32,957 nucleotides of DNA from a virus, in the IMG/VR virus record IMGVR_UViG_3300008266_000267, positions 1 through 32,957 of that record; one strand, written 5' to 3'. Under the pieces are notes generated by a model that ran no database searches, was not told the DNA's origin, and was given only the letters and a program-made list of their open reading frames with translations. This document shows positions 3,931 through 13,224 of the stretch, piece after piece; the first letter of the stretch is position 1, and every line of letters starts with the position of its first letter. The position numbers and the translations under genes were made by a program.

Positions 3931-4542
3931 TTACATGATGCGATACACGATGAATGTGTTGGCAGCAGTCTTGCGGAGACGGAAACGTGCCGCTGAGCCA
4001 GAAGTGGCACCAGTTGCAGCACCGCCCACGATGGTCACGCCTGTGTTGACCGTGATGGTCAAAGCAAATGCAGCCAAGGTGATAAGGCTGAAGTCGAACG
4101 AGTCATCAATAGCGAACACCGTTGCGGCTTCAAGCGTGGCGGCTGTTGGCAATTGAATGTTGCGACCAGTCGTTGGAGTTGCCGTGATGATACTGGTGAG
4201 CAACTCAGCCGCAGTCATGACCATCGAACCGCCATCAGCAATGTTGGCTGGTGCAGGTTGATTCTGCCAATTGCCATCGTTGCCGATCTGTGGTGCTACT
4301 CCAACGCTATACAAAACACCTGACGCGCCAGCTTGAATGGTCACATTGGTGGCATTGGTAAATGCACTTGAGATATAGGTGGCGTTATCAACCACGGTCA
4401 ACAGGTCTTGTGCTTCTGGAAAGTTGGGGAAACCGACTTCCTGAAACACGTTTGCTGGCGAGAAAGATTGAATGGCGATCTTCTGTCCAGCAGGAACAGT
4501 AACGGTGGCCGTGCCCTGAGTAAAAATTGCTTGGTAGCTCAT
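3931..4542 (-). CDS. Probable virion protein following the coat gene
   Basis: This 203-residue protein has no charged clusters and much threonine, alanine and valine. The N-terminus (TQGTATVTVPAGQKIAIQSF) looks like a beta-sandwich strand set. The C-terminal half, with TAATLEAATVFAIDDSFDFS and a final RLRKTAANTFIVYRIM, resembles small beta domains in phage structural proteins. The ATG at 4542 has AAGGA eight bases upstream. It sits nine bases after the coat gene and immediately before a terminator, so coat and this protein share the same strongly expressed transcript. Capsid decoration protein is a reasonable inference; a minor tail protein is the alternative. Confidence 0.72.
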   Translation of the reverse strand: MSYQAIFTQGTATVTVPAGQKIAIQSFSPANVFQEVGFPNFPEAQDLLTVVDNATYISSAFTNATNVTIQAGASGVLYSVGVAPQIGNDGNWQNQPAPANIADGGSMVMTAAELLTSIITATPTTGRNIQLPTAATLEAATVFAIDDSFDFSLITLAAFALTITVNTGVTIVGGAATGATSGSAARFRLRKTAANTFIVYRIM

Positions 4543-4551
4543 GATGATTCC

Positions 4552-5838
4552 TTAGGCTTGATTGAACAGCAAGATACCAGACATTTCTGGTTGCTTGTTG
4601 ACCACGCCGAACAAGGTATCGAGGCGATACTTGGTCTTCATGGTGTTGACGTCGTACTGCTTTTGCATGACCAGCTCGATGCCCTGGTCGGTGCTTGCAC
4701 GCATCACTGCGACACCAGCATCAGACGGGACAGCGTAACGGCCAGGCAAAATCTCCAGCGCATCCTTCTGCCAGAAGCAGTTCACCGGTGCAGTGGTGGT
4801 ATTCAAGCGGTTGATGGTGCGACCAGAAGCAGCGGTGACGATGCAGTTCTGGTATTGCAGTTCAGCGTCCGTGCCACCCTGTGCCGAGATGATCGGTGGG
4901 GTGATAACGCAAGTCGTTCCAGTGACCACTTGCACAACACGGAAGGTCTTTGAGAAACCCGTGCCCTGCTTAGTGATGTGATGAACAGCCTCGACGCCTT
5001 GGATTTCGATGGCAGAGCCAGCAGGCAGGTCGGTGGTGCTCGACACGGTAATCGTTTGGAAACGATTGTCCACGTTCTGCGTTTCACCGGTCGTTGCGGT
5101 CGAAGTTGCCACTGGCACGTAGTAGTTATTGGCTCCCACCAAGGTGCTCATGGTTGGGTCAGAACCAGTCGCACCGGTGAGGCGGTTGGCATAGTCCAGC
5201 TTGTAGGTCTCAAAGCCAGCGACCATGCCGACGTAAGAACGCTCGAAGGCGGTATTCGACTTGGTTCCACCGAAACTACGGGCTGCACCACCACCAGTAG
5301 CGCCACCAGCGATGTTGCCAGCGATGCCGTTGTAGTCGCGTGAAGACAGGGCTAGGTAACGGTCAAAGGCTTGGACGCCCTGCTCGTTCATGATCGAGTC
5401 GCACAGGGCCACATCGTCGTAGTCACCAGCAGCGGTGCTCACGGTAACGACCAGCGAGCCCTGGGCTGCGGCCACGTTCATGATTGCGATGTTGATGTCG
5501 GACGCCAGCTTTTGCTTGGCAGCTTCGCCGAGACGACCTTCTTGCAGGGCATCACGCAGCTCGAGTGCGTCCAGAATGAACGGCACGGACTTCTGGAAGC
5601 CGAGCGTTGCAGGAACGGAAAGCTGGGTGTATGCGCCGAAGTTGCCCGTCTGATCCATGCCGTCATACGACTGGGCAATGTAAGGCTGTGGACGATAGAT
5701 GACGTTGTTCGTCCGCTCCATCATCGAACTCTCGGTGTTGTAGATGGACACGTTGCGGGACAAAACCAGCGCGTCGTTGAAGCCTTCGAGGATGTCCTCG
5801 AACGCGACGCGCTCTTCTTTTGAAAAACTATTGCTCAT
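4552..5838 (-). CDS. Major capsid protein, P22 coat (gp5) type
   Basis: The length of 428 residues is close to the 430 of P22 gp5. The most telling region is near residue 255: NVDNRFQTITVSSTTDL followed by IQGVEAVHHITKQ and FRVVQVVTGTTCVITPP. It aligns with NVDNRFATVTLSATTGM and FSVVRVVDGTHVEITPKP that I recall around the P22 insertion domain. The N-terminal third includes LRDALQEGRLGEAAKQKLAS and MNVAAAQGSLVVT, like the helical spine of the HK97 fold. The start at 5838 has a clean AGGAG six bases upstream. It follows scaffold and portal in P22 order and would assemble the T=7-type shell around the scaffold. Confidence 0.93.
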   Translation of the reverse strand: MSNSFSKEERVAFEDILEGFNDALVLSRNVSIYNTESSMMERTNNVIYRPQPYIAQSYDGMDQTGNFGAYTQLSVPATLGFQKSVPFILDALELRDALQEGRLGEAAKQKLASDINIAIMNVAAAQGSLVVTVSTAAGDYDDVALCDSIMNEQGVQAFDRYLALSSRDYNGIAGNIAGGATGGGAARSFGGTKSNTAFERSYVGMVAGFETYKLDYANRLTGATGSDPTMSTLVGANNYYVPVATSTATTGETQNVDNRFQTITVSSTTDLPAGSAIEIQGVEAVHHITKQGTGFSKTFRVVQVVTGTTCVITPPIISAQGGTDAELQYQNCIVTAASGRTINRLNTTTAPVNCFWQKDALEILPGRYAVPSDAGVAVMRASTDQGIELVMQKQYDVNTMKTKYRLDTLFGVVNKQPEMSGILLFNQA

Positions 5839-5855
5839 GAAAAACTCCTAGTGAT

Positions 5856-6725
5856 TTATTTGGATGCTGTCCGTTTTTGCGCCTTGTACTGGATGACCTT
5901 GGTCATGTTTCCAGTACGTGCCGCATCTTCTCGCAGCCGTTCAAGGGTTGAGTCTACTGCGCCAGAAACTCGGCCCGTACCGGACACGATTCTCTCTGGC
6001 GGTGGTGCTGCTCTGCGGTTGGTAACTTTCAAGTCTTTCTCCAGTTTCGCTACCGCGAAAGCAAACTTTACGGGGTCTTTGATGGCTGCCAGTTCTTGCG
6101 CCTTCTTTGGATTCTTTCCGAGTGCGTAGACAACCAGCGCGGGATTATCCGCACCTTGGAGCATTACGCCTTGCTGGGTGACGTTGAACAATTCCTGGGC
6201 CATAGCCTCGGCATCGTCAAAGTCTTTGACTCGCAGCTCAGCTTTCGCCTTACCGTAGCCTTCCAGTTTGGCTTGCCATGCTTTCTGCTGGGTCATAACT
6301 TCAGCTTCTTGCTTGGCGTTGATCTCGTCGGCTTGGCGCTTGCGCTCAAACCAGTTCGTCAATGCTTCCTCAAACTTCTCGGCGTCGTAATCGTGATCTT
6401 CGAGGCTTGGCTTTTTGCCCAGCACGACTGGCTTGATCTCAGTCTGTGCGGAGGTTTGGAGCCTGCCTTGCAGTTCTCGATTCTGGCGCTGTAGTTCTCG
6501 GTTCGTCTTGCGCAGCTCGCGAACCCATTCAGGCGCTTGAGTCTGTTCTTCGGGAGGTGGCGCTTCCTCCCCACTAATGGAGACTACAACTTCGTCGGAT
6601 TCCTCGTCATCTTGGTCTGTGGCCTGATCGTCCTGGACTTGTGCCCTAGGTTGCTCGGTGACCTCGTCCTCGATGACTGCAGTATCCTCGTCGTTGTCGA
6701 TCTCCTGATCTGCCTTTTCGTTCAT
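5856..6725 (-). CDS. Scaffolding protein, P22 gp8 type
   Basis: This 289-residue protein compares with 303 in P22. The N-terminal 60 residues are very acidic and disordered-looking. A predicted coiled coil follows (WVRELRKTNRELQRQNRELQ), then a central helical region, and the C-terminus is basic (KVIQYKAQKRTASK). Acidic start and basic, coat-binding tail are the hallmarks of podovirus scaffolds. There are no catalytic motifs and no cysteines. The gene lies between portal and coat as in P22. It would direct procapsid assembly and leave the shell on packaging. The start at 6725 has only a weak G-rich ribosome site, so an alternative start cannot be excluded. Confidence 0.88.
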   Translation of the reverse strand: MNEKADQEIDNDEDTAVIEDEVTEQPRAQVQDDQATDQDDEESDEVVVSISGEEAPPPEEQTQAPEWVRELRKTNRELQRQNRELQGRLQTSAQTEIKPVVLGKKPSLEDHDYDAEKFEEALTNWFERKRQADEINAKQEAEVMTQQKAWQAKLEGYGKAKAELRVKDFDDAEAMAQELFNVTQQGVMLQGADNPALVVYALGKNPKKAQELAAIKDPVKFAFAVAKLEKDLKVTNRRAAPPPERIVSGTGRVSGAVDSTLERLREDAARTGNMTKVIQYKAQKRTASK

Positions 6726-6800
6726 CTATTGCCCCGTCTCAAGCTCACCCATTGATGCGGCTGGGTGGATGCCGTTGTTTGCATTATCGCCCGTTTCAAG

Positions 6801-8861
6801 TTATCGAACAACAGGCTGAATAATCTGGCCTCGCAGTATCTCTTGCACCGCCTCAGCATTGGTAAGCGCCATATTCTGAGCGGTCTCATCAACCTTGCTC
6901 AAGGTCTCCAGCGTCTTGGCCCTGCTGAGTTCAGCATCGGCCACGGTCTTGACCGTGCTGGCTCGAGCCTGGGCTGCCTTGGCGGTGGCCTCCTCGGCTG
7001 CGGCTTGCAAGTACATTGAATTCGGGTCTTGCGGTGTGCCTTGCATCTCGGCCATGAGTTCTTGGGCCTCGTTGTCTGTCGGCTTGACCACGCCCATGCG
7101 CAAGAGCTTCTTGCGGAAATAGGCGTTGGCGTCACCGATGCCCTCGCCTTCCATGTTCATCATGGCCATGGCTGTGATGACCTGTTGGGTTTCTGGGTCT
7201 TGGGTAATCTGGAGCATGCCGGTCAGCGCCCTGACAGTAGCAGCACGCTTGCTGCTGCTGGATGGCCCGACTTCGGACACCACATCAAAGGTCGCAGAAC
7301 TCAAGTCGTTTGCCATCACCACCGCGCCTGTTTCAGTGTCAATCGTGGGCTGCATCAGCTCCACCATTCCGGCTTCGCCAGTCGGGGCGATGGTCTTCAT
7401 CTTGCGCTTGTCTTCGGTGTAGATTTCCTTGGCCATCGAGAGCCATATCTCTCCGCAGCGTTTCATGCCCTTTGCAAAGTTGGACATGTAAATGTACGTC
7501 TGCATATCCACACGAGTCTGGATCATCTCCACCGCTTTGCCGGATACGCCTGACACCATCTTGTCAGCACCTTGCGGGTTGCCCAGAATGTCCTGCATAT
7601 CTTGCTCTGTGATCTGCAAGAGGGTCGCCATCGCAGGCGGGATTGCTGCGCTGCGGGTATAGGCAACGGGGCCAGTGACCGTTTGGTTTCCGTCTTGATC
7701 GGTGATCGGGTTGACCAACAGATATGGGTAATCACGCAAGTTGTCTTCAGCCCACATGACTTGGTGGCCTGCGACCTGTTCGGGGGTCAAGATTGGTTTC
7801 TCGATGCTGGACAGGGCTGAAATCTCGCCCAGCTTGGAGAGCTGCATGTTCTTCAGGCGTTGGGCATCTTTGGCCAGGCGCACTGCACCCATGCAGCGTT
7901 CGATGTTGTCCACGAACCAGCGTTTGCCGTAGACGGGCACGATGGGAATGCACTTGCCAGCAATGTAGCCTGCGTCTTCCAGCACCTTGCCGCCCGACAT
8001 GATGTATTTTCGAACCCGCGTGCGCTTGATGCGCTTTTGGCGTACCTCGCGGGTGCCGATGGCCAGCAAGGTTTCTTCCAGCATTTCATCGTTCTCGAAA
8101 TCTTGCTGGCTGTAACGCTCCTCGGTTCCGTCAACGCCCTCGAAGATGCGGATCGTCTCAGTCTTTTCCTCGACCTTGTAATACTCAGCCACAAAGACCA
8201 CGTCAGGGGTTGCCCAGTCGAATTCATACTGGTGGATGATCTTGGGCCAGTCGGATGGGTCGTCGTTGTAGATTTCCTTGTAGCTTTCGCGGGTCATGCT
8301 GTTGACCACAAAGCAATATCTGGCGTCGGACTTGTCCTGGCGCTTGGCGTTCAGGTCAAAGAACACCGAGCTGTCGGCATCGAAGATCGGCTCGAAGCGG
8401 ATGCGCTGACGATCATCCTCGGAATCTTCTTCATCCTCATAGACGGTGCGCAGACGCCACGCGCCAAAGCCACCGCCCACAGCCTCCTCAAAGGCGTTGT
8501 CGTAGGCTTCGTCGGCCACCGACGCCTGCTCGTCTGCACGGTAAAGACCGTCGCAAACCTCGGCCAGCTTGTCGTTTTCCGTGCCGTCTTTGCTGACGTA
8601 ATCAACGGTGATGCGGTTGTTGCGGTACTCGTTGACGATCCTGATCACGGCCAGCATGATCTTGTTGACTTCAAACTTGGGCTTGTTCTCGTATTGATCC
8701 CAGAGCGGGCCTTCCCACTGTGCGCCGCAAAGACTGTAGAAGCGCCGGTCTTGCAGGCATTGCAGTCGCTCATCGCGCAGCGCGGTCTGAATGTCGTTGT
8801 ACTGCCGCAAGGCTTCAGCGTGCAGATTCGAGAGCCGCTGATCGTTGGATAGTCGAGCCAT
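6801..8861 (-). CDS. Portal protein, P22 gp1 type
   Basis: This 686-residue protein compares with 725 in P22. Aligned landmarks are DKSDARYCFVVNSMTRESY (P22: DKSDARHCTVIHSMSQ), AGKCIPIVPVYGKRWFVDN (P22: AGEHIPIVPVFGEWGFVED) and GAVRLAKDAQRLKNM. A C-terminal Ala/Glu/Lys-rich helical stretch follows, like the P22 barrel. I set the start at the ATG at 8861, with GAGGA eight bases upstream. The frame stays open for 12 more codons into the terminase gene, but those lack a ribosome site. Twelve copies should form the DNA channel at one capsid vertex and dock the large terminase. The 75 bases between this gene and scaffold hold nothing that I recognise. Confidence 0.93.
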   Translation of the reverse strand: MARLSNDQRLSNLHAEALRQYNDIQTALRDERLQCLQDRRFYSLCGAQWEGPLWDQYENKPKFEVNKIMLAVIRIVNEYRNNRITVDYVSKDGTENDKLAEVCDGLYRADEQASVADEAYDNAFEEAVGGGFGAWRLRTVYEDEEDSEDDRQRIRFEPIFDADSSVFFDLNAKRQDKSDARYCFVVNSMTRESYKEIYNDDPSDWPKIIHQYEFDWATPDVVFVAEYYKVEEKTETIRIFEGVDGTEERYSQQDFENDEMLEETLLAIGTREVRQKRIKRTRVRKYIMSGGKVLEDAGYIAGKCIPIVPVYGKRWFVDNIERCMGAVRLAKDAQRLKNMQLSKLGEISALSSIEKPILTPEQVAGHQVMWAEDNLRDYPYLLVNPITDQDGNQTVTGPVAYTRSAAIPPAMATLLQITEQDMQDILGNPQGADKMVSGVSGKAVEMIQTRVDMQTYIYMSNFAKGMKRCGEIWLSMAKEIYTEDKRKMKTIAPTGEAGMVELMQPTIDTETGAVVMANDLSSATFDVVSEVGPSSSSKRAATVRALTGMLQITQDPETQQVITAMAMMNMEGEGIGDANAYFRKKLLRMGVVKPTDNEAQELMAEMQGTPQDPNSMYLQAAAEEATAKAAQARASTVKTVADAELSRAKTLETLSKVDETAQNMALTNAEAVQEILRGQIIQPVVR

Positions 8862-10114: not shown

Positions 10115-10563
10115 GTCTTGACGATCACCCGCTCAATGCGCTGCACCAGTGGATTGGCAGGGTCGCCAGAAACTTCGATCTTGTCGCCAAACTTCTTGGG
10201 TGCCAGCTTGGACAGCAACCATTTGCGGGTGTCCACTTGCAGCTTGTGCTTCTGTACAGCCGCCCAGTCTTTCTTCCCGTCTGGCAGAAAACCAACGTCT
10301 GAATCACTCAACTCCAGCACCTCTTGCGCCATGCGTTCAATCAAGTCTTCCCTCGCGCGCGCATATTCTGCGGCTAAAGCGTCATCATCGTTCAACCATG
10401 TGTTGAATGTGCTCTGATGCACTCCGGCCGCCTCACATGACTTGAGAGCACTCAACCCATTGCGCATTCCTTGCAGCACCAATGCAGTGACTGAGGCTCG
10501 ATCTTCGCTGCCGGGTTTAGTTCGCTTGATTATCCCTTGTGTTTTCTTTTCTTTTGTATTCAT
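10111..10563 (-). CDS. Terminase small subunit, Sf6-like
   Basis: This is a 150-residue protein. The N-terminal half carries a helix-turn-helix-like stretch, SALKSCEAAGVHQSTFNTWL, expected for pac-site recognition. The segment ARAREDLIERMAQEVLEL, then KLQVDTRKWLLSKLAPKKFG, is the oligomerisation core typical of Sf6-type small terminases. The Sf6 protein is about 140 residues. The start at 10563 has AAGGAAAA about eight bases upstream. It is coupled to the large subunit by an ATGA overlap. By analogy with P22 the pac site may lie within or near this gene, but I cannot point to it. Confidence 0.92.
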   Translation of the reverse strand: MNTKEKKTQGIIKRTKPGSEDRASVTALVLQGMRNGLSALKSCEAAGVHQSTFNTWLNDDDALAAEYARAREDLIERMAQEVLELSDSDVGFLPDGKKDWAAVQKHKLQVDTRKWLLSKLAPKKFGDKIEVSGDPANPLVQRIERVIVKT

Positions 10564-10605
10564 GCTTGATTTTCCTTAAATGTAATTCCCTGACTTAGAT
10601 TTTGT

Positions 10606-10839
10606 TTACTGTTGAAATGTTTTATCACCAGCATTCAACCATTGATTTTCTGTCCGATAAAACTTCCACTGAGCAGCTTCTGCCTCAGTAAATGTTTCTT
10701 CACTAACTGGCGCCCCTGTAATCCAAGAGAACAACTCCACCGTCACTCTCCCGTTTGACCTCCCCAGCACGATGCCTTGCAACGCCACCTCGCCGTTCTC
10801 ATCCACCGTGTGGAAAAACTTTCCCTTCTCCATCCCCAT
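10606..10839 (-). CDS. Hypothetical protein upstream of terminase
   Basis: This is a 77-residue protein beginning MGMEKGKFFHTVDENGEVAL. It has a short basic-free beta-rich core (GIVLGRSNGRVTVELFSWIT) and ends KTFQQ. The frame stays open upstream through the TGCCCCT repeat array. That part gives a low-complexity proline/glycine/cysteine translation with no support as protein. I chose the ATG at 10839, preceded by GGGGAG at seven bases. A second ATG at 10833 is possible. Similar short proteins occur next to replication or terminase genes in other phages, but I know of no function. Confidence 0.7.
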   Translation of the reverse strand: MGMEKGKFFHTVDENGEVALQGIVLGRSNGRVTVELFSWITGAPVSEETFTEAEAAQWKFYRTENQWLNAGDKTFQQ

Positions 10840-10893
10840 GTTAGTGCTCCCCAACTTTGTTAAAAAACCTGCCCCGCCCCCACCGCATCCCGT

Positions 10894-11006
10894 TGCCCCT
10901 ACTGCCCCTAACGTATACGTTTTAGGGGCAGGGAGGGGCACAAATAACGGGCTTTTGCCCCTGTTGCCCCTGCCGCCCCTAGGGGCACAAAGGGGCATTA
11001 GGGGCA
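10894..11006. repeat. TGCCCCT/AGGGGCA inverted heptamer array
   Basis: Ten copies of a 7-mer lie in 113 bases. Two TGCCCCT (10894, 10903) face two AGGGGCA (10924, 10934) across an ACGTATACGT core. Then TGCCCCT at 10956 and 10965 and CGCCCCT at 10974 face AGGGGCA at 10981, 10991 and 11000. Spacing within each set is 9-10 bases, so each half forms a large imperfect dyad. The array starts inside the primase stop codon and fills the gap to the next gene. It could be an origin with iterons, a protein-binding array or a pair of RNA hairpins; it lacks the T-tract of a terminator. The flanking bases 10840-10893 hold a further G-rich stretch on the minus strand. Confidence 0.85.
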
Positions 11007-13046
11007 TTGTGTTGGCTCATTTTTTTGCATCAACATCACGCTCGCCTGCACCTCATTGACGAACACCCAACCGCCGTCGCATGACTCCAGAGTGCCTGCA
11101 TTGAGCAATGGTGAGATGATCCCATCTGGCCGAGAAGCATCCATTTTATTCCTGGCGGTGCGTTCAGCCACCCCATCTTTAATTAACAAATCCCGCAACC
11201 CTGCCCTGCTCAAATAAGGTAATCCTTTGCGCTCTTCTGTACCAGAAGCCCACCAAGCACGCTCAACCATTCTGACATTCTCATCATACTTTGATGGTTT
11301 CTTGTTTGGTTTATTGTTGGTGGATTCATCGTCTTGAATAGCCACGCAAGTCGTTGCTTGGTTACCAAACTTGGATACACCCATCTCAACCACCTCCAGT
11401 TTGAAGTAGATGGTTTCTCCCTTGCTTGGCAGTTCGCGTTGCTTGGTCACGTTGACCATGCGGATGCCGTCTTTTTCAATCACCTCAATCTCGGTGTCAA
11501 TGTGAGCGCGGATGCCTGACCAGCCTCGAGCGCCTTTGGCTGCGTCCTTGCCGTTGTGGTGGACGATCATCAAGGCGGCTTTGGTGGCGGTGGCTACCTG
11601 GTCAAAACGAGCCATGACCGGCCCCATGTCTTCACCGCTGTTTTCGTTGGCTCCTGCGCTCATGCGTGCCAAGGTATCGCCAATGATGAGGCGCACGGGT
11701 TGGCCCTTCATCTGCTCAATGGAGCGCACCAACTCAATCACATCGTAGGCATCTTGGTCGCCGGTGTAAAAGTTGATAGGCACGGGCACCATTGCCAAGT
11801 TCTCAAGGTTGCAGTTGTGATACTTTTTGATGGCTTGCATCCGTGATCTGATGCTGGCCGGGGCTTCGGTTGCCAAGTAGATCACCAGACCTGGGTCGGT
11901 CTTGCGTCCGTAGCACAGCGTGCCGCTTGCGATTGCGGTGGCAACTGAGAGCGCCCAAAAGGTTTTGCCTGAGTTGCTGTCGCCATAGACCACCACCGAG
12001 CTGCCAATGGTCATCAAGCCCTCAACCAGTTCGTTTGGCGCTTCGTACTCGCTGCCGAGCTGGTCGCCAAAGACCACCTTGAGCTTATCAAAGACAGCGG
12101 TGCCGGTCTGCTGAATCAACAATGCGGTCAAGTCGTTTCCAGCTTGAGCGTAATCATTGACGTCACCAAGAACTGGCGGCATCACCATCCGCGCCCCATG
12201 CTTGGCGCAGGCTTGCTCTGCGTACCTTTGGCCGACTCCGCTCTTATCATTGTCGGCCACAATCACCAAATCGCTGGTTGGGTGCAGGCCGCGCATGGTT
12301 GCGGTCACCGGCACAAGGTTGGACGCTGAGTATGCAACGACAACCGGCCTTAAGGTGACTTGATGGATGGTCGCAGCCGTGGCATAGCCTTCGGCAACGT
12401 AAATGCTGCCAGGCTCGTCCATTGACCCCAGCACCCAGAACTTGCCGTTGGTCGAACCGCCTGGGTGGTATAGCTTGCCGCCCTCGCTGTCGATGTACTG
12501 GAGTGATGCCAGCGTGCCATCCTGATCGTACAAAGGCACCACCAGACGCCCATCGCCTGTGACCCGTGCGCCGTGAGGAGCGATGCCCTTGCGCCGCAAA
12601 TATGGATGGTCTACTGACGCGCTTATGCAGTCGCTCCAGATGGTGTCAACCACATCCGCAGCCACCTCGTGCTTGCGTGCCTGCTCGAGGTCGCGGGCGG
12701 CTTTGGCTTCGCTCATGCGGCGGGCAAAGGCCATCTCATCGGCCTGGTTGAGCTGCCTGCCCACCTCTGCCCGCCAGGTCTGCTCCATGCCCGCACGCCA
12801 ACAGCCAAAGCGCCCTGCTGGGATGCCGTCGCTGAACGCGATGTACCAACCAGGCTTGTCGCCGTGGCCTGGCGAGCCCTTGGTGCCGGAGCGGAAGCGA
12901 TGAATCTTGCCGTCGAGGTGGATGGTGTCCGGCGGTTCCAAACCAGCATCGCGCATGGCGTCTTGGAGCTGCTGCTCCGGTGGTGCCAGCACGGGTGCGG
13001 GAGGTGGCGACCATGAGCCGCCGAGGATGTGTCTTAGATCAGCCAT
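10998..13046 (-). CDS. Primase-helicase (Toprim plus RepA/AAA_25 ATPase)
   Basis: This 682-residue protein probably both primes and unwinds at the replication fork. A Toprim-type nucleotidyl-transfer domain is seen at about 213-300, with VAEG (E219) and VADNDKSG (D265, D267). A RecA-like ATPase follows: Walker A GDSNSGKT at 355-362, Walker B LIIGDTLA with D457, and the H496-H497 pair in MIVHHNGK, as in hexameric RepA/KaiC-like helicases. I see no CHC2 zinc finger at the N-terminus. The ATG at 13046 overlaps the regulator's stop by eight bases. The C-terminal 120 residues look like a winged-helix region. The gene is transcribed with the late genes and away from the other replication genes. Confidence 0.9.
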   Translation of the reverse strand: MADLRHILGGSWSPPPAPVLAPPEQQLQDAMRDAGLEPPDTIHLDGKIHRFRSGTKGSPGHGDKPGWYIAFSDGIPAGRFGCWRAGMEQTWRAEVGRQLNQADEMAFARRMSEAKAARDLEQARKHEVAADVVDTIWSDCISASVDHPYLRRKGIAPHGARVTGDGRLVVPLYDQDGTLASLQYIDSEGGKLYHPGGSTNGKFWVLGSMDEPGSIYVAEGYATAATIHQVTLRPVVVAYSASNLVPVTATMRGLHPTSDLVIVADNDKSGVGQRYAEQACAKHGARMVMPPVLGDVNDYAQAGNDLTALLIQQTGTAVFDKLKVVFGDQLGSEYEAPNELVEGLMTIGSSVVVYGDSNSGKTFWALSVATAIASGTLCYGRKTDPGLVIYLATEAPASIRSRMQAIKKYHNCNLENLAMVPVPINFYTGDQDAYDVIELVRSIEQMKGQPVRLIIGDTLARMSAGANENSGEDMGPVMARFDQVATATKAALMIVHHNGKDAAKGARGWSGIRAHIDTEIEVIEKDGIRMVNVTKQRELPSKGETIYFKLEVVEMGVSKFGNQATTCVAIQDDESTNNKPNKKPSKYDENVRMVERAWWASGTEERKGLPYLSRAGLRDLLIKDGVAERTARNKMDASRPDGIISPLLNAGTLESCDGGWVFVNEVQASVMLMQKNEPTQCP

Positions 13047-13224
13047 TGACCGCCACCGTGCTGGTGTCGCGCAGATAGTTCTCAATGCTTCGCATGGTGG
13101 ACTTGCTGGGCCTGGTCTTGCCGTTGACCAGCCGGTACAGCGTGAACACGCTCAGGCCAGTAGCTTCGGCCACCACCGGCAGCTTCCGGTCGGCCAAGCG
13201 TTGTTGAATTTCGGTAAGGTTCAT
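13039..13224 (-). CDS. Small Cro-like HTH regulator
   Basis: This is a 61-residue protein that is essentially one helix-turn-helix: LPVVAEATGLSVFTLYRLVN followed by GKTRPSKSTMRSIENYL. Length and pattern fit lambda Cro/XRE-type DNA-binding domains without a C-terminal dimerisation domain. No ribosome site is visible before the ATG at 13224. It may be translated from a leaderless or weak message, which would keep levels low. It is divergent from the first early promoter, whose upstream region contains a TTGCA dyad. Control of that promoter, and of itself, is a natural inference. It overlaps the primase gene by eight bases. Confidence 0.85.
   Translation of the reverse strand: MNLTEIQQRLADRKLPVVAEATGLSVFTLYRLVNGKTRPSKSTMRSIENYLRDTSTVAVNG

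Follow-up and report, generated by a model that had tools for sequence, protein, structure and literature searches.

An iteron array directly downstream of a phage primase-helicase gene: a probable replication origin and its candidate reader domain

The alpha protein of phage P4 binds its repeats with a winged-helix domain (PMC4234260). In the initiator helicases Rep of SaPI and Cch2 of SCCmec, it is the C-terminal domain that reads iterons directly 3' of the helicase gene itself (PMC7581432). The plasmid pRN1 requires for its replication a stem-loop directly 3' of its primase-helicase gene, and in the stem-loop origin of pRN1 and the Bordetella phage BIP-1 it is the structure that is conserved and not the sequence; specific binding to the pRN1 stem-loop was not found (PMC4234260). 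The oriV of RSF1010 combines iterons with ssi hairpins (PMC4234260).

We analyzed a 32,957-bp contig, an IMG/VR record of a freshwater phage, and refer to this whole stretch of DNA as the window. One strand carries a Sak4-like gene; the other carries, in order, the genes for a small Cro-like HTH protein and a primase-helicase, an iteron array, a 79-aa ORF, and the genes for an Sf6-like small terminase, the large terminase and a P22-like portal protein (Table 1). The primase-helicase matches RSF1010 RepA (1g8y) in a phmmer search (E 7.5e-06), and its primase region is 39% identical to P4 alpha over 172 aa (E 6e-26).

The locus shares with P4 this homologous TOPRIM region, short repeats that occur in both orientations at intervals of about 9-10 bp, and their placement directly 3' of the primase-helicase gene (in NC_001609, crr at 4291-4590 and alpha at 4636-6969). 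However, the helicase here is RepA-type (AAA_25) whereas that of P4 is SF3/D5, no similarity between the C-terminal domain and that of alpha was detected at the sequence level (hhalign probability 0.2%), and P4 has a second, separate ori. Membership in the P4-type origin was rejected because the helicase and the C-terminal domain differ. As with SaPI and SCCmec, iterons come right after an initiator helicase gene with a candidate C-terminal reader, but the helicase families and hosts are others, a common iteron or domain is not shown, and the hairpin described below has no stated equivalent there. pRN1 and BIP-1 likewise have, immediately past a primase-helicase gene, a large stem-loop whose sequence is free to vary, but their primase is archaeal-type, their helicase is SF3, and they lack iterons. 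RSF1010 oriV has the same helicase family, iterons and hairpin; there a separate RepC reads the iterons, whereas here the reader appears to be fused to helicase and primase. By analogy, the best reading is that the array works like P4 ori/crr and the SaPI ori, as an origin downstream of its initiator gene.

Table 1. Coordinates of the features of the locus in the window
Feature	Position	Strand	Basis or remarks
Iteron array	10894..11006	.	9 exact TGCCCCT/AGGGGCA and CGCCCCT at 10974; homologous arrays in relatives
Proximal block of the array, three against three	10956-11006		
Distal block of the array, two against two	10894-10940		
TOPRIM primase fused to RepA-type helicase	10998..13085	-	Pfam Toprim_3 and AAA_25; probable start ATG at 13046
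C-terminal domain, residues 600-690, putative iteron reader	11016..11288	-	Covariation with iterons
Putative recognition helix, residues 639-652 (VAERTARNKMDAS region)	11130..11171	-	Covariation
Small Cro-like HTH protein, upstream of primase	13039..13224	-	phrog_18104
Distal hairpin element	10883..10962	- (primase-sense strand)	Similar layout in other lineages
Outer stem arm, CCCGTT on + strand	10889..10894	-	Pairs with 10946-10951 (AACGGG)
Outer stem partner arm, AACGGG	10946..10951	-	Pair covariation
Apical palindrome ACGTATACGT	10911..10920	.	In relatives ACCTATAGGT, CCCTATAGGG, GCCTATAGGC or TTTA-loop hairpins

The preliminary description had reported ten copies of the heptamer. The cluster is real, but nine copies are exact (TGCCCCT starting at 10894, 10903, 10956 and 10965; AGGGGCA at 10924, 10934, 10981, 10991 and 11000) and the tenth, at 10974, carries one mismatch. 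The facing layout, two against two around ACGTATACGT and three against three around CTAG in steps of 9-10 bp, was borne out, as was the start of the array in the primase stop codon (10998-11000), which the final heptamer overlaps. Within its 113 bp the array holds nine of the 11 exact heptamers of the contig, only two further ones lying in the remaining 32.8 kb. In dinucleotide shuffles there were 5.2 heptamers per genome and a maximum of 2 in any 115 bp. A search of phage records at the DNA level returned no match. The element is 122-125 bp long or is swapped for longer forms, not in frame, and the next gene differs between relatives. The ORF that crosses the array is thus not a conserved gene; a coding-sequence reading was rejected, and the earlier statement that no gene accounts for the array holds. 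Nor is the array an assembly artefact, which had been named as a way in which the description could fail, because the same array or a homologous one recurs on independent contigs. An AT-rich stretch at 10560-10660, flanked by the 79-aa ORF and the gene for the small terminase, is a possible opening region.

Eighty contigs with primases 71-97% identical to that of the window formed the close-relative set. Wherever the contig reaches (L033 ends too early), an element of the same type lies at or just past the primase stop, and the gene after it differs. Arrays also follow the primases, 35-40% identical, of three distant phages, namely Salicola CGphi29 (iteron GGGGACA), Alteromonas PB15 (GGTTCAC) and Idiomarinaceae 1N2-2 (GGTACAC). 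Scans with these three primases added 130-odd loci with many other iteron words, an array being present after most distant primases. The 83 non-redundant arrays hold 5-14 copies (median 8), begin at a median of 6 bp past the primase stop and show a same-strand spacing peak at 9-10 bp. The iteron is particular to the lineage (GGTAAC, CGTAAC, GGTACA, GGACAA, GGTTCAC, GACCCCC and others), and from one lineage to another all copies of an array change in concert. Comparison of the homologous regions, which had been proposed as a check, thus found the layout kept and the TGCCCCT sequence not kept. Loss of the heptamers beside retained flanking genes had been put forward as evidence against the element; the heptamer sequence is indeed lost, yet a different array stands in its place.

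Not every locus follows this arrangement. About 30, mostly of the L120-L159 group, showed no array after the primase or within the 5-9 kb seen; the primases of this group and of L193, L211, L214 and L088, likewise arrayless over that distance, have a C-terminal domain. In one lineage the origin may have been relocated or lost. The L187-L191 primases carry an unrelated C-terminus on a body about 68% identical, yet are followed by a GGGTACA/CGGTACA array. At Burkholderiales and other chromosomal loci, the RepA-type helicases are only 34-51% identical, some lack the primase part, and most have a C-terminal domain unrelated to that of the window; yet many are followed by another iteron array and a CTTTAG hairpin (for example L405, L406, L410, L414, L417 and L420), as are the RepA-type helicase genes of Rhizobium phage 16-3 and Roseobacter phage CRP-831. 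No array was found directly 3' of the helicase gene of Caulobacter phage RW, and in Roseobacter CRP-406 and Gordonia phage Mahdia an overlapping next gene occupies its place. In the E. coli plasmid p1RM9154-C1 (L429, 2150-2350), several AAAGTGAG repeats lie directly 3' of a RepA-family helicase gene, with no TTTA hairpin seen.

The phased copies, the concerted change of the iterons and a covarying protein domain support, by sequence comparison, the earlier suggestions of multimeric protein binding and of an origin at which the primase-helicase recognizes the iterons. Within this enzyme, the part that reads them is very probably the C-terminal domain. Residues 600-690 are the most variable part of the primase and matched nothing in Pfam or the PDB. 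The distance between domains tracks the distance between iterons when the rest of the protein is controlled for (partial rank correlation 0.26 for residues 600-690 and 0.30 for 625-660, compared to 0.04-0.19 elsewhere). Natural swaps of the domain point the same way directly. The primases of L149 and L167 are 97% identical over residues 50-590 and 31% in 600-690, with the iterons GGTACCA and CCGGTAT; those of L101 and L105 are 94% identical in the body and 19% in the C-terminal domain, with GACCCCC and GTTAGCT. Conversely, L197 is 43-44% identical to L030 and L031 in the N part and 63-65% in the C-terminal domain, and the three have a common iteron. Between L109 and L112, DNA identity falls over the domain and the array and recovers beyond. 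The comparison supports that the two move as a unit; since they are adjacent, the fact that they are exchanged together would not by itself prove much.

The small Cro-like HTH protein, the gene for which adjoins that of the primase in most relatives, had been offered as another reader. In L149 and L167, however, this protein is identical (53/53 aligned residues) and the iterons are unrelated, which refutes it as the sole reader, and the same iteron occurs with different HTH recognition segments among phages. That the Cro-like protein reads the array is scarcely credible.

What takes the match of C-terminal domain and iteron beyond linkage is the position of the covariation and its predictive power. 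The covariation sits in columns 642, 646, 647, 649 and 650/652, and from their spacing these columns look like one face of a recognition helix spanning residues 639-652. We set down prediction rules before retrieving a test set of 64 phages, which were fetched afterwards. The rule for R642, which predicts CCCC, met with CCCC in 12 of 19 phages and CCC in the other 7, and CCCC was found in 0 of the 45 other phages. The rule for Y647 (TAAC, GAAC or GGAA) held in 33/36 phages, the exceptions being CGTATCT in two and GGTACAT in one. When the iteron was predicted from the nearest neighbor, the helix recovered 5.51 of 7 positions across the 64 phages, the rest of the domain 4.32, the N part 4.17 and random choice 3.93. 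The 14-residue segment did better than the other 74 domain residues in 40 phages and worse in 7, and better than the rest of the primase in 43 and worse in 8. Among candidates less than 45% identical in the rest of the domain, at least 6 positions were matched in 30% with the helix versus 2%. Some of the test phages have close counterparts in the training set; restriction to less than 70% N-part identity gave the same outcome (51 better, 5 worse). Mere linkage was rejected as the cause of the joint change, as the helix outpredicts parts of the same domain that are nearer the array.

The distal block belongs to a hairpin element composed of a GGGGCAAAA box (10950-10962), an outer stem, an iteron stem, an apical hairpin and a TGCGG box (10883-10887). 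In 46 distinct sequences from close relatives, CG, AT, GC and TA are exchanged as pairs in the outer stem, with zero G-T, and the apical palindrome varies likewise; the outer and apical stems together gave 389 Watson-Crick pairs, 1 G-T and 1 A-C. Across lineages, 46 distinct apical stems gave 217 Watson-Crick pairs, 2 G-T, 2 A-C and 9 others. An apical hairpin is present in the distal block of 97 of the 147 loci, with the loop CTTTAG, CTATAG, CTTAAG or GTATAC, and between iteron and apex 2-3 additional bases are usually present on the 5' side. The loop prefers one strand, CTTTAG occurring 56 times and its complement CTAAAG once. Downstream of the primase in L009, L010, L011, L055, L063-L066, L078 and L080, a longer hairpin (TACCCCC...GGGGTAGGGG) replaces the short one. 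Several of the relatives with the long hairpin, and CGphi29 (L085, 5205-5262), have, ahead of the next gene, a promoter-like site with a CCTATAGG-like palindrome on either side.

The strong complementary stems on one strand and the strand bias of the TTTA loop would suit a structured RNA in the primase 3' region (a terminator, antiterminator or attenuator at the early/late boundary), akin to the two tandem RNA hairpins proposed earlier. This reading is disfavored, and we consider it quite improbable, because the stems covary almost wholly without G-U, the iteron copies change together, alongside a DNA-binding-like helix, which is unexpected for RNA stems, and Rfam covariance models returned nothing relevant, only sub-threshold microRNA models. 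As one strand is preferred but RNA-like wobble is absent, a hairpin in DNA fits better than one in RNA. Template switching, which perfects inverted repeats, could also produce wobble-free hairpin stems without selection.

An operator was also weighed, through which the primase C-terminal domain would repress or time its own operon and the downstream genes, with the origin elsewhere. The array does lie between co-oriented genes, and promoter-like sites with paired CCTATAGG palindromes occur just downstream in L009, L055, L063 and CGphi29. However, the array is 3' of the gene of its reader and not at its promoter, the 5-14 facing copies with a covarying hairpin exceed what is usual for operators, the reader domain is fused to a helicase-primase, and the CCTATAGG pairs stand apart from the iterons. 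We regard the operator as unlikely. A pac-related site had also been proposed, and the gene for the Sf6-like small terminase does lie about 330 bp from the array in the window. In relatives, however, the array keeps its place by the primase even where 2-6 kb separate it from the terminase (about 6 kb in PB15, about 1.9 kb in CGphi29) or other genes come next; the pac reading is therefore not supported and has very little probability.

From domain content, position and precedent, the array quite probably functions as an origin. As in iteron-type origins, a phased cluster of short repeats is present, and covariation points to a cognate initiator. It is likely that the array serves the phage as its replication origin, or as the portion of the origin bound by the initiator, operating in the following manner. 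The C-terminal domain would bind each 7-bp iteron in duplex DNA through the helix 639-652, and this binding would recruit several copies of the enzyme to a site just 3' of its own gene. Two assemblies of opposite orientation would be set by the facing iterons, which lie about one helical turn from each other, and the RepA-type helicase would then open the DNA. The distal hairpin, folded on one strand, might next act as a signal for loading of the TOPRIM primase or for priming by it, comparable to the ssi hairpins for RSF1010 RepB'; this function is a guess by analogy. Origin activity, oligomerization, strand opening and the role of the hairpin are what we infer for the array.

A DnaA box, TTATCCACA, lies no farther than 420 bp away in 16 of 83 loci, against a background of 0.022 per 420 bp, and is absent in the window. 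In L013-L028, L039, L049 and others, a perfect TTATCCACA box lies about 30-60 bp past the array, just before the next start codon, and P4 likewise has TTATCCACA at the crr edge (L230, near 782). In four genomes, the GC-skew check suggested earlier placed the cumulative minimum at a distance of 1-4 kb from the array, in one of them only if circularized; the minimum is near the array, but it coincides with a divergent promoter and may thus reflect gene direction.

In the open-access papers that the search covered, we found no described origin for these phages or this helicase class. We lean toward the view that the loci represent a widespread, so far undescribed class of phage origin that spans phages and prophages from several classes of proteobacteria. 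It would be defined by a RepA-type helicase whose C-terminal DNA-binding domain can be swapped, followed by an iteron array and a hairpin with a TTTA loop, and domain and array would diversify as matched pairs into dozens of dialects. If true, this would be a natural recognition code, in which the origin word is predictable from the protein sequence, and the matched pairs would be a data set on the joint change of a DNA-binding helix and its site. It would also assign a likely origin to phages for which we found none described, and by layout alone would make origins findable in uncultured phage genomes. The recurring hairpin with its one-strand loop raises a testable question of how RepA-type helicases or TOPRIM primases start, and the iteron dialects suggest how related phages could escape cross-replication when they co-infect.
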